Assembly (NCBI RefSeq): GCF_025997995.1
Contig: NZ_AP026683.1
Coordinates: 1,550,501-1,614,500 of the forward strand
Length of the DNA: 64,000 nucleotides
DNA from: Sediminibacterium sp. TEGAF015
GTDB lineage: Bacteria > Bacteroidota > Bacteroidia > Chitinophagales > Chitinophagaceae
Reading direction: 5' to 3'
Part shown: positions 19,652 to 24,129 of the stretch, piece by piece
How the letters are laid out: the number at the start of each line of letters is the position of its first letter
How positions within the stretch are numbered: the stretch's first letter is position 1
The notes under the pieces: model-generated
Database searches by the model: none
The model's input: only the letters and a program-made list of their open reading frames with translations
Told to the model about the DNA's origin: nothing
Position numbers and translations under genes: made by a program

Positions 19652-22600
19652 TTAACTGCATCCCATACTAGTTCCGCAGTTTAAACACTTGTAACAAGTT
19701 CCGCTTCTGATGGTTAAATGACCACAGGTACTACAAGCTGGCGCATCACTTTGCATGCTCTTTGCTGCTGCGTTTACTGCATCCATTCCACTGTTACCGG
19801 CTGCTGCTGTAGTGGTTGCTGCTCTTTGTAGTTTAGAAGAAGCAGGGCCTTCTGCAGGACTTGAATTAGGAGAAGGAGCGGTAACTCTTACACTACTCAA
19901 TTCGGGCTTTCCCAAAAAAGTAGCATCTCCTTCTTCTCCTGTATTACCTACAGTTGGTCTGTCCAATACATGTACCAGATCCGTTCTGTTCAGGTATTCG
20001 TAGCCTAAAGCACGGAATACGAAGTCTACCAATGAAGTAGTGGTTTTAATATTCGGATGGTCTACCATACCGGCTGGTTCAAAGCGGGTAAAGACAAATT
20101 TATCAACAAACTCTTCCAATGGAACACCATATTGTAAGCCAACGGAAACTGCAATGGCAAAACAGTTCATTAAGCTGCGAAGGGTAGAACCTTCTTTAGC
20201 CAGATCAATGAAAATCTCTCCTAGCGTACCGTCACTGTACTCACCTGTTCTTAAGAAAACAACCTGACCTCCAATCTTTGCTTTCTGCGTAAATCCTCTT
20301 CTCTTAGCAGGCAAAGATTTTCTTTCTACTATTCTGGATAAAGCACGCTTTAGTTCTGTATCTGTAGATGCAGTCATACGCTTAGTAACTTCTTCCAGCA
20401 ATTCATCTACGGTTAACTGACCCAAATCAACGATGGTTGAAGCTTCTGCTACTGCTGTTTCTTCTGCAACAGCTTCTGTGGCAGTGTCTTCTGTTTTCTT
20501 TTTCTTTTCGCTCTTATTGCTCAGCGGCTGACTTAGTTTGGAACCATCACGGTATAAAGCGTTTGCTTTAAGTCCTAACTGCCAGCTAAGCATGTAACAA
20601 TCTGCAATTTCTTCTACTGTTGCTTCATGAGGCAGGTTGATGGTTTTAGAAATAGCACCACTCAGGAAGGGCTGACATGCGGCCATCATTCTGATATGTC
20701 CGTAAGCATGAATATATCTTTCCCCCTTCTTACCACATTTGTTGGCACAATCAAACACGGTTAAGTGTGCTTCTTTCAGGAATGGAGCACCTTCTACTGT
20801 CATGGTACCACATACATAATCATTCGCTGCTTCAATTTCATCTTCTGTAAAGCCTAATGCTTCTAGTAAATTAAAGCTCCAGTCTTCATATTGTTCAGGA
20901 GTGAAACCTAAACGCTGCATACACTCATCACCCAATGTAAATCGGTTGAAAATGAAAGCGATTTCAAAGGCAGATCTGGCCGCTCCGTTTAATTTTTCAA
21001 TTTCTGCCGCAGTAAATCCTTTTGCTGCTAAGCTTGCATTGTTAATGAAAGGAGCATTCTCAAAGCTGGCAGCACCAACAGCATATTGCTCAATGGCTTT
21101 AGCCTCTGATTCACTGTAACCCAAATTCTTCAATGCCTGCGGAACAGACTGGTTAATGATTTTAAAGTAACCACCACCGCTTAACTTTTTGAATTTAACC
21201 AAGGCGAAATCTGGCTCAACACCAGTGGTATCACAATCCATCACCAAACCGATAGTGCCGGTTGGTGCAATCACCGTAGTTTGCGCATTGCGGTAACCAT
21301 ATTTTTCACCCAACTGTACAGCATCATCCCATGCACGGGTTGCTGCTTTTAACATATAATCAGGACAATACTGAGCCTTAATACCTTGTGGTTTAATTTC
21401 CAACCCTACATAGGCTTCAGTTGCATCGTATGCAGCAGCACGATGGTTGCGCATTACACGTAACATGTCTTCCTTGTTTTCTTCATACTTATCAAAAGTG
21501 CCAAGGAAAGAAGCCATTTCAGCAGAAGTTTTGTAAGCAACACCAGTCATGATGGCTGAGATTGCACCTGCAATTCCTCTTGCTTCTTCACTATCATAAG
21601 CAATACCGCTTACCATTAACATAGAACCCAGGTTGGCAAAACCAAGACCCAATGTTCTGTAATCGTAAGACAATTGCGCTACTTCTTTAGAAGGGAACTG
21701 AGCCATCAATACAGAAATTTCCAGCACAGTGGTCCACAAACGAGTAGTGTATTCAAATCCTTCTACATCAAAAACATTGGTATCGTCATCATGAAACTTA
21801 CGCAGGTTGATAGAAGCAAGATTACATGCAGTATTGTCTAGGAACATGTACTCTGAACAAGGGTTAGATGCATTGATGCGTCCACCTTTTGGACAGGTAT
21901 GCCATTCGTTAATGGTAGTATCGTACTGTGTTCCAGGATCTGCACAACGCCATGCTGCATAAGCAATTTTATCCCAAACTTCTCTGGATGGAATTTTCTT
22001 CATTACTCTACCATCTGTTCTGGCTTTTAACTCCCAGTCTCTTCCTTCTTCCAAAGCATGGAAAAATTCGTTTGGTATTCTTACAGAGTTGTTTGAATTC
22101 TGGCCAGATACTGTTGCATACGCTTCCCCTTCATATCCATTATCGTAACCAGCAGCTACTAAAGCAGCTACTTTCTTTTCTTCTTCTACTTTCCAGTTAA
22201 TGAACTCCATGATTTCCGGATGATCCAAATCCAAACAAACCATTTTGGCTGCGCGACGGGTTGTACCACCACTCTTGATGGCACCAGCTGCACGGTCACC
22301 AATTTTCAGGAAACTCATCAAACCACTTGACGTACCACCTCCGCTTAATTTTTCACCACTTCCACGAATCTGAGAAAAGTTCGTACCTACACCTGAACCA
22401 TATTTAAAAATTCTGGCTTCACGGGTCCACAAGTCCATGATACCACCTTCATTCACCAAGTCATCGCTTACACTTAGAATGAAACATGCGTGTGGCTGAG
22501 GACGCTCATAAGCATTGGTTGATTTCTTTAATTTACTATCTTTTGGATCTACATAGTAGTGACCTTGCGGCTTACCAGTAATACCATAAACTTCGTGCAA

Positions 22601-23023
22601 TCCTGTATTAAACCACTGTGGTGAATTGGGTACACATGCCTGATTCAAAATGCTGTATGCCAATTCATCATAGAATACCTGCGCATCTTTTTCACTGGCA
22701 AAATAACCATAGCGCTCACCCCATACTCTCCAGCAATGGGCCATTCTATGTGCAACTTGCTTTACACTTGTTTCTCTGCCTAATGAACCATCTGGTTGAG
22801 GCACACCTGCTTTCCTGAAATATTTCTGAGCTAGAATATCAGTAGCAATCTGGCTCCATTGCTTAGGAACCTCTACATTATTCATTTCAAAAACTTTTTC
22901 ACCGTTTGGATTTTTGATTACGCTGTCGCGGTAATCGTATTCAAACATATCATAAGGACTAACACCATCTTTGGTGAAGCGGCGGCTGAATTGCAAGCCT
23001 TTGGGAGTGCGTGGATTAGGCAT
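19652..23023 (-). CDS. nrdJ: Adenosylcobalamin-dependent (class II) ribonucleotide reductase
   Basis: Makes deoxyribonucleotides using a coenzyme B12 radical, with no oxygen requirement. At 1123 residues it is the long NrdJ form. Visible are catalytic-site segments NPCSEYMFLDNTACNLASINL (around residues 390-410, split here by family knowledge into NPCSEY and the following Cys-containing stretch), a finger-loop-like PTGTIGLVMDCDTTGVEPDFAL region, and a charged low-complexity linker (about residues 830-870). A C-terminal domain with zinc-ribbon cysteines (CSTC...CYKCLNC) and terminal MGCS follows; the C-terminal cysteines normally re-reduce the active site. I see no obvious ATP-cone at the N-terminus. 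DnaA-box-like sites lie 100-180 bp upstream. The organism must make or import B12. Confidence 0.96.
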   Translation of the reverse strand: MPNPRTPKGLQFSRRFTKDGVSPYDMFEYDYRDSVIKNPNGEKVFEMNNVEVPKQWSQIATDILAQKYFRKAGVPQPDGSLGRETSVKQVAHRMAHCWRVWGERYGYFASEKDAQVFYDELAYSILNQACVPNSPQWFNTGLHEVYGITGKPQGHYYVDPKDSKLKKSTNAYERPQPHACFILSVSDDLVNEGGIMDLWTREARIFKYGSGVGTNFSQIRGSGEKLSGGGTSSGLMSFLKIGDRAAGAIKSGGTTRRAAKMVCLDLDHPEIMEFINWKVEEEKKVAALVAAGYDNGYEGEAYATVSGQNSNNSVRIPNEFFHALEEGRDWELKARTDGRVMKKIPSREVWDKIAYAAWRCADPGTQYDTTINEWHTCPKGGRINASNPCSEYMFLDNTACNLASINLRKFHDDDTNVFDVEGFEYTTRLWTTVLEISVLMAQFPSKEVAQLSYDYRTLGLGFANLGSMLMVSGIAYDSEEARGIAGAISAIMTGVAYKTSAEMASFLGTFDKYEENKEDMLRVMRNHRAAAYDATEAYVGLEIKPQGIKAQYCPDYMLKAATRAWDDAVQLGEKYGYRNAQTTVIAPTGTIGLVMDCDTTGVEPDFALVKFKKLSGGGYFKIINQSVPQALKNLGYSESEAKAIEQYAVGAASFENAPFINNASLAAKGFTAAEIEKLNGAARSAFEIAFIFNRFTLGDECMQRLGFTPEQYEDWSFNLLEALGFTEDEIEAANDYVCGTMTVEGAPFLKEAHLTVFDCANKCGKKGERYIHAYGHIRMMAACQPFLSGAISKTINLPHEATVEEIADCYMLSWQLGLKANALYRDGSKLSQPLSNKSEKKKKTEDTATEAVAEETAVAEASTIVDLGQLTVDELLEEVTKRMTASTDTELKRALSRIVERKSLPAKRRGFTQKAKIGGQVVFLRTGEYSDGTLGEIFIDLAKEGSTLRSLMNCFAIAVSVGLQYGVPLEEFVDKFVFTRFEPAGMVDHPNIKTTTSLVDFVFRALGYEYLNRTDLVHVLDRPTVGNTGEEGDATFLGKPELSSVRVTAPSPNSSPAEGPASSKLQRAATTTAAAGNSGMDAVNAAAKSMQSDAPACSTCGHLTIRSGTCYKCLNCGTSMGCS

Positions 23024-23367
23024 ATCGAAATTGTGGTTTAAGATGTATGTAACAGTTTTCCCAAAACCGTGTTAAATCGGTCGGTTGACGAAAATATCCT
23101 TCCATTTTCAAAATCCAATAGTTGAAATATACACAGCTTGTGGATAAGGAAGGTGGATAATTTCAGAGCTCAAATCCCCATTGAATTTCCCTGATTATAC
23201 ACAGGTGTCAATAAGATTTTTAGGTAATATTGCAGATACGATAGGTTGATGTTTTTGGCCTAAAAAGTTAAACAAGCCTGTATTTGTCTCCCCCCGACAT
23301 TGGTAACCGTATTTAAAATGCATTAAACGAAAACTTTTCTGCATTTTTGTAATAGCATCCTATTAGA
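23024..23367. promoter_or_regulatory. 344-bp divergent intergenic region (nrdJ / GGGP synthase)
   Basis: Gene-free and AT-rich. It holds the DnaA-box-like cluster (23127-23203), a weak nrdJ -7 candidate (TATTTTCG on the minus strand at 23096-23089) and a weak plus-strand -7 candidate (CATTTTTG, 23342-23349) before the GGGP synthase gene. I looked for a cobalamin riboswitch because the downstream enzyme uses B12, and found no B12-box-like sequence. Confidence 0.6.
23127..23203. promoter_or_regulatory. Cluster of four DnaA-box-like 9-mers
   Basis: Against TTATnCACA there are two exact matches: 23139-23147 (minus strand, TTATCCACA) and 23195-23203 (plus strand, TTATACACA). Two more sites have one mismatch: 23127-23135 (plus, ATATACACA) and 23152-23160 (minus, TTATCCACC). 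The first two form an inverted pair around GCT. The cluster lies just upstream of the predicted nrdJ promoter. It could be a DnaA-responsive regulatory region or, less likely, part of an origin. Confidence 0.55.
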
Positions 23368-24129
23368 ATGAAGCAAAACATTTACCAGCAATTCATTACC
23401 AAAAAGCGTTCGGGGAAAAAGTCCTTTGCCGTACTGATTGATCCTGATAAAGTGAATGCCAAAAGCATTGCAGAATTGGTAAAATTGTCGATTGAAGCAA
23501 AAGTGGATTATTTCTTTGTGGGTGGCAGTTTGGTGATTTCACACCATCTGGACGAATGTATCCAGCAAATTAAAGCCAACTGTTCCATACCTGTCATTTT
23601 ATTCCCTGGCTCTCCTTCCCAGGTTAGCAAATATGCAGACGCATTGTTGTACCTCTCATTGATTTCAGGAAGAAACCCTGAACTACTGATAGGACAGCAT
23701 GTGATTTCTGCCCCTTTTGTTAAAAAATCCGGCCTGGAAATCATGCCTACCGGGTACATGGTAATTGATGGAGGTGCACCCACTACTGTAAGCTATATTT
23801 CCAACGCCTCTCCTATACCAGCTGATAAAAGCGAAATTGCCATGTGCACTGCCATGGCGGGTGAAATGCTGGGCATGAAATTAATTTATATGGATGCGGG
23901 TAGTGGGGCAAGAAGGCCTATTACCGAACAAATGATTGAAAAAGTAGCCCAGCATATAGAAGTCCCCTTGATAGTAGGAGGAGGCATTGTTGACCCTGAG
24001 AAAGCTTACCTCAACTGCAAGGCCGGGGCCGACATTATTGTTGTTGGCAACGCAATTGAAAAAGACATTTCCCTGATTACTGAAATCAGCGCTGCCATTC
24101 ACTCTGTTGCCAACATTAATGCGGGGTAA
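23368..24129 (+). CDS. Geranylgeranylglyceryl/heptaprenylglyceryl phosphate synthase family protein
   Basis: Couples a polyprenyl diphosphate to glycerol-1-phosphate, the first committed step of archaeal-type ether lipids; bacterial members occur in Bacteroidota and Firmicutes. The 253-residue TIM barrel shows the opening DPDK (residues 27-30), GSLVISHHLDE, FPGSPSQVS, GYMVIDGG, the phosphate-loop segments MDAGSGA and IVGGGIVDPEKA, and GADIIVVGNAIE near the end. Prenyl chain length cannot be read from sequence. It is the first gene of a plus-strand run with alkB six bases downstream. Confidence 0.93.
   Translation: MKQNIYQQFITKKRSGKKSFAVLIDPDKVNAKSIAELVKLSIEAKVDYFFVGGSLVISHHLDECIQQIKANCSIPVILFPGSPSQVSKYADALLYLSLISGRNPELLIGQHVISAPFVKKSGLEIMPTGYMVIDGGAPTTVSYISNASPIPADKSEIAMCTAMAGEMLGMKLIYMDAGSGARRPITEQMIEKVAQHIEVPLIVGGGIVDPEKAYLNCKAGADIIVVGNAIEKDISLITEISAAIHSVANINAG

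Follow-up and report, generated by a model that had tools for sequence, protein, structure and literature searches.

The window, a 64,000-nucleotide stretch of the Sediminibacterium sp. TEGAF015 chromosome, bears nrdJ on its minus strand (19652..23023), whose product is a class II (adenosylcobalamin-dependent) ribonucleotide reductase by NCBIfam profiles NF005122 and TIGR02504, both matched above cut-off, in agreement with the original prediction of a B12-dependent enzyme. The divergent gene on the plus strand (23368..24129) encodes a geranylgeranylglyceryl/heptaprenylglyceryl phosphate synthase (NCBIfam NF003198, above cut-off). Four DnaA-box-like sites had been claimed at 23127-23203, and all four were present, two of them exact and two with one mismatch. 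The main DnaA box, TTATCCACA (23139..23147, minus strand), matches TTATNCACA exactly. Its inverted partner, ATATACACA (23127..23135, plus strand), has one mismatch and lies across a 3-bp spacer, while the third box, TTATCCACC (23152..23160, minus strand), likewise with one mismatch, stands in tandem with the main box across a 4-bp spacer. The upstream DnaA box, TTATACACA (23195..23203, plus strand), is again an exact match to TTATNCACA. We found in addition a fifth box, TTATTGACA (23206..23214, minus strand, one mismatch), which was absent from the original prediction; separated from the upstream box by a 2-bp spacer, it forms with that box another inverted pair, TTATACACA-gg-TGTCAATAA. The five boxes at 23127-23214 thus form two inverted pairs and one tandem pair. 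Read in the direction of nrdJ, the order is the upstream inverted pair TTATTGACA-cc-TGTGTATAA, then TTATCCACC, four bases, the main inverted pair TTATCCACA-agc-TGTGTATAT, a predicted promoter of the form TTG-N19-TATTTTCG, and the nrdJ start at 23023.

Frequency of the boxes within the genome

We counted 99 exact matches to TTATNCACA in the chromosome (one contig of 3,055,665 bases), or ~1 per 31 kb, close to the chance rate of about once per 30 kb given earlier. The pattern was not enriched genome-wide, as 99 matches compare with 94 for a reversed control pattern. The nrdJ pair, with 56 bp between starts, is the closest among the 99; the runner-up, found upstream of mraZ, has starts 90 bp apart. 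No box cluster in the 864 kb of genome that we sampled scored higher than the one at nrdJ. Since ~0.2 pairs within 65 bp are expected per genome (calculated from the genome-wide density), the exact pair is by itself only mildly unusual. These single-genome statistics are suggestive only; as judged by sequence comparison, the significance of the cluster comes from its conservation across species.

Conservation of the boxes upstream of nrdJ

We collected 80 nrdJ loci, mostly from Sediminibacterium and other Chitinophagaceae, 79 of which had at least 350 bases upstream. An exact TTWTNCACA was found within 300 bases upstream of nrdJ in 79/79 of these Chitinophagaceae loci, which are related and so do not represent 79 independent events; the corresponding count was 5.2 for dinucleotide shuffles and 0 both for nrdJ coding sequence and for DNA far upstream. 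TTWTNCACA is the consensus of E. coli DnaA, with W and N as its two degenerate positions. When the 79 loci were aligned, the box columns were held while neighbouring intergenic columns varied. Seven positions of the main box were invariant, the third (W) was A in 42 loci and T in 37, and the fifth (N) was C in 76, so that variation in the main box is limited to the two degenerate positions of the E. coli consensus. The columns of its inverted partner, TGTKNATAT, were likewise kept in the family, and 77 loci had a partner with no more than 2 mismatches, separated from the main box by 2-3 bp. The columns of the third box were moderately conserved, its 3' end usually reading TNCACA, and the fifth box was also seen in the alignment. 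The interval between the upstream and the main box was exactly 56 bp in 19/19 loci whose upstream box is an exact match and in 21/27 whose upstream box has one mismatch; among the exact copies, all four bases occurred at the N position.

Conservation extended beyond the family. In other families of the order an exact box was present in the 450 bases upstream of nrdJ in 14/16 genomes, a count that 200 scrambles of the pattern, equal to it in composition, never reached, and all five further family or class members had one as well. Among members of other classes, 7/11 carried the box upstream of nrdJ (1 of 300 scrambled patterns reached 7), and it was mostly missing in a further 13, chiefly but not all of family f35, with 1/13 having it. 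Our guess, partly from the leader sequence, is that f35 and its neighbours are Chlorobiaceae-like. Several of the box-less nrdJ upstream regions from other classes, mostly f35 (L318-L330), carry sequence that by its appearance resembles a cobalamin riboswitch (AGTCAGGAAACCTGCC). The search for the same boxes in other Chitinophagaceae, which had been proposed as a check, was thus positive throughout the family and in most of the order.

Geometry of the predicted nrdJ promoter

The predicted -7 element of nrdJ, TATTTTCG (23089..23096, minus strand), is near-invariant in the 79 loci and resembles the Bacteroidota -7 consensus TAnnTTTG (PMC7366714). The predicted -33 element is a TTG (23116..23118, minus strand) located 19 bp upstream of it, an interval that was exactly retained in 59/77 loci. 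All 77 scorable loci placed the end of the main box at one of two distances from the -7 element, 42 bp in 64 loci and 41 bp in 13. This constancy of distance and phase between box and promoter favours transcriptional control over a replication origin. The main inverted pair is centred ~53 bp upstream of the expected transcription start and does not overlap the -33 or -7 element, which suggests that activation is the likelier basic effect.

Related boxes at mraZ, dnaA and nrdBA

At the order level, an exact box was found upstream of mraZ in 15/20 genomes and upstream of dnaA in 7/20, and 0/200 scrambled patterns reached either count. All 28 Sediminibacterium members scored had an exact box at mraZ, most of them as two boxes ~90 bp apart that are flanked by tandem 9-mers with 1-2 bp between them. 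In the genome under study, two exact copies of TTATCCACA lie 90 bp apart, together with tandem 9-mers, upstream of mraZ-rsmH-ftsL (G000:C1:2988437-2988535; L070). This arrangement suggests, at the level of sequence, that DnaA may control the division cluster through the mraZ boxes. The last 70 bases before mraZ (L192-L220) hold an extremely conserved AAAGTGGGAAAAAGTGTTATTTTGTGTCAACAAGTGG, probably MraZ operator repeats.

Box conservation was weaker at dnaA than at mraZ, and several Sediminibacterium dnaA promoters carried TTATCCACATGTGGAAAA. The class Ia nrdBA operon occurs in five genus members, and in 5/5 of them a palindrome with one mismatch (TTTTCAACA...) lies upstream of nrdB. The 15-mer TTTTCAACATAAAGT is common to the dnaA and nrdB promoters (3055633-3055651 and 1459775-1459793 of G000:C1); these sites are the sole genome matches with at most 1 mismatch to the 19-base pattern, and most of the genus members read retain the 15-mer ahead of dnaA. 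The nrdB/dnaA element may represent weak DnaA sites or those of another factor.

Several other candidates were set aside. Exact boxes were present in 2/8 class I nrdB promoters across the order, leaving an exact box common to them unsupported and the one-mismatch element confined to nrdB of the same genus. Two matches of the dnaA/nrdB 15-mer in other species fall inside the atpD coding sequence and were attributed to chance, and further palindrome matches (at 212108, 364793, 1061624, 1251789 and 1646238, among others) were intragenic or lacked a convincing promoter context. The nrdBA leader contains a cobalamin riboswitch in both of the two members scanned; through it, B12 would make the cell change over from the class I to the class II enzyme.

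DnaA as the candidate binder

NrdR is the usual regulator of ribonucleotide reductase genes. It was found in 0/100 relatives (33 genera), while 9/14 control genomes were positive, and NrdR boxes were accordingly ruled out as the identity of the element. DnaA of the Sediminibacterium genome matches TIGR00362, and shares its helix-turn-helix sequence FGGRDHTTV, without a difference, with the E. coli protein of PDB entry 1j1v; where domain IV of the E. coli protein has its minor-groove arginine, it has Gln, as does M. tuberculosis DnaA. The TTWTNCACA boxes in the nrdJ promoter region exceed chance, with a positional degeneracy that is that of DnaA recognition. Their arrangement differs among promoters (inverted, tandem or single), which is compatible with a protein that recognizes single 9-mers as a monomer. 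In E. coli, DnaA has a preference for boxes paired at 2-3 bp, and its binding sites include regions upstream of nrdA, nrdD and dnaA (PMC11317965). The main nrdJ pair has the same 2-3 bp spacing but is inverted, and its tandem neighbour is 4 bp away, whereas the E. coli pairs are tandem. Based on the same boxes at mraZ and dnaA, the monomer-type arrangement, the matching helix-turn-helix and the E. coli precedent, DnaA appears to be the most economical candidate.

The strongest competitor is a dedicated, as yet undescribed factor that replaced NrdR and binds TTWTCCACA-n2/3-TGTKNATAT at nrdJ as well as TTTTCAACATAAAGTGTATAA at nrdBA, the likeness to DnaA boxes being coincidental. The absence of NrdR, conservation of the nrdJ palindrome over ~21 bp, the related palindrome upstream of nrdB in every genus member that has that operon, and the recurrence of its 15-mer at dnaA, with no further site within one mismatch in the genome, would all fit such a factor. 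In contrast, the degeneracy at W and N matches the DnaA consensus, mraZ displays the same 9-mer as single sites and tandem arrays rather than as a palindrome, and no candidate regulator was identified. We consider this explanation unlikely, albeit the only competitor of appreciable weight. A broader form of it, in which the Chitinophagales lost NrdR and a regulator other than DnaA reads DnaA-box-like palindromes at nrdJ, nrdBA and dnaA as one replication-supply regulon, strikes us as similarly doubtful.

Alternative roles for the cluster

The cluster could also serve to titrate or reactivate DnaA (as a datA/DARS-like locus), lying here by chance and playing no role in nrdJ transcription, given that conserved DnaA-box clusters can act in this way in E. 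coli (PMC11317965). Because the boxes keep a constant distance and phase relative to the -7/-33 elements of nrdJ across the family and recur at the mraZ and dnaA promoters, we regard such a locus as highly improbable.

The presence of several DnaA boxes in so short a stretch between two genes might suggest a chromosomal replication origin, which the original prediction had disfavoured. Our sampling of GC skew (41 stretches covering 28% of the chromosome) bears this out, as the cumulative skew reached its maximum at ~0.55-0.6 Mb and its minimum at ~2.33-2.40 Mb, while the nrdJ site, at 1.574 Mb, lies ~0.8 Mb from that minimum. Together with the fixed box-to-promoter distance, which an origin would not need, these findings leave the origin with a negligible probability. 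Searches for oriC found no box cluster at 2305001-2440000, near the skew minimum, or in other sampled stretches, so that the box preference assumed here for DnaA of this genus is that of E. coli. The dnaA gene is at G000:C1:101, ~0.7 Mb from the skew minimum, and dnaN, named by eye from its sequence, is at 2325704, near the minimum. Finally, a chance cluster, which the expected rate of such close exact pairs might at first allow, is refuted by the 79/79 conservation, the invariant columns and the fixed spacing, and we give it essentially no credence.

Discussion

The comparisons described above indicate that the element is real and conserved at the nrdJ promoter. We conclude that the cluster is probably a cis-regulatory element of this promoter, with DnaA its most likely binder; we infer indirectly which protein binds, whether it activates or represses, and that it has a role in the cell cycle. 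The original proposal that the DnaA logic of E. coli nrdAB extends to a class II enzyme gains support from the conservation and the fixed promoter spacing. According to the model that we favour, DnaA would sit on the main inverted pair, a short distance upstream of the -33 element, assisted there by the tandem box and by the second inverted pair 56 bp further upstream. By adjusting transcription of the sole or main ribonucleotide reductase, DnaA would cause dNTP supply to track replication initiation. Moderate DnaA occupancy would lead to activation, as suggested by the position of the main pair upstream of -33, and high DnaA-ATP possibly to repression, as reported for E. coli nrdAB.

This arrangement resembles that of E. 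coli nrdAB and nrdD, in which paired DnaA boxes also lie upstream of a ribonucleotide reductase operon and the presumed binder belongs to the same initiator family. E. coli DnaA regulates nrdAB in a manner dependent on its nucleotide state (PMC8203912). It also autoregulates dnaA, and several Sediminibacterium dnaA promoters carry boxes as well. Unlike nrdAB, nrdJ is class II, has a predicted promoter of the Bacteroidota -33/-7 type with an inverted main pair of putative DnaA sites, and belongs to organisms in which NrdR is absent. The element shares with NrdR boxes the character of a conserved palindrome upstream of a ribonucleotide reductase gene, but NrdR boxes differ from it in half-site sequence and spacing. 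In Caulobacter crescentus and Bacillus subtilis, DnaA has been proposed to tie replication to genes for dNTP synthesis and division, including ftsZ/ftsL and ribonucleotide reductase (PMC8203912). In contrast to those regulons, the candidate division-cluster target discussed here is the mraZ promoter, the phylum is different and the evidence is comparative. We found no report in the open-licence literature linking DnaA with nrdJ, Bacteroidetes or mraZ. DnaA control of ribonucleotide reductase is already known in E. coli; such control of a class II enzyme, its occurrence in this phylum and a connection to mraZ did not appear in the literature searched.

If correct, DnaA control of dNTP supply would reach beyond the class I enzymes of Proteobacteria to a B12-dependent enzyme in Bacteroidota that are devoid of NrdR, and would also cover the cell-division cluster. 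Taken together, these findings would then define a specific cell-cycle regulon, comprising dnaA, nrdJ, mraZ-dcw and possibly nrdBA, for a phylum in which transcription over the cell cycle has received little attention.
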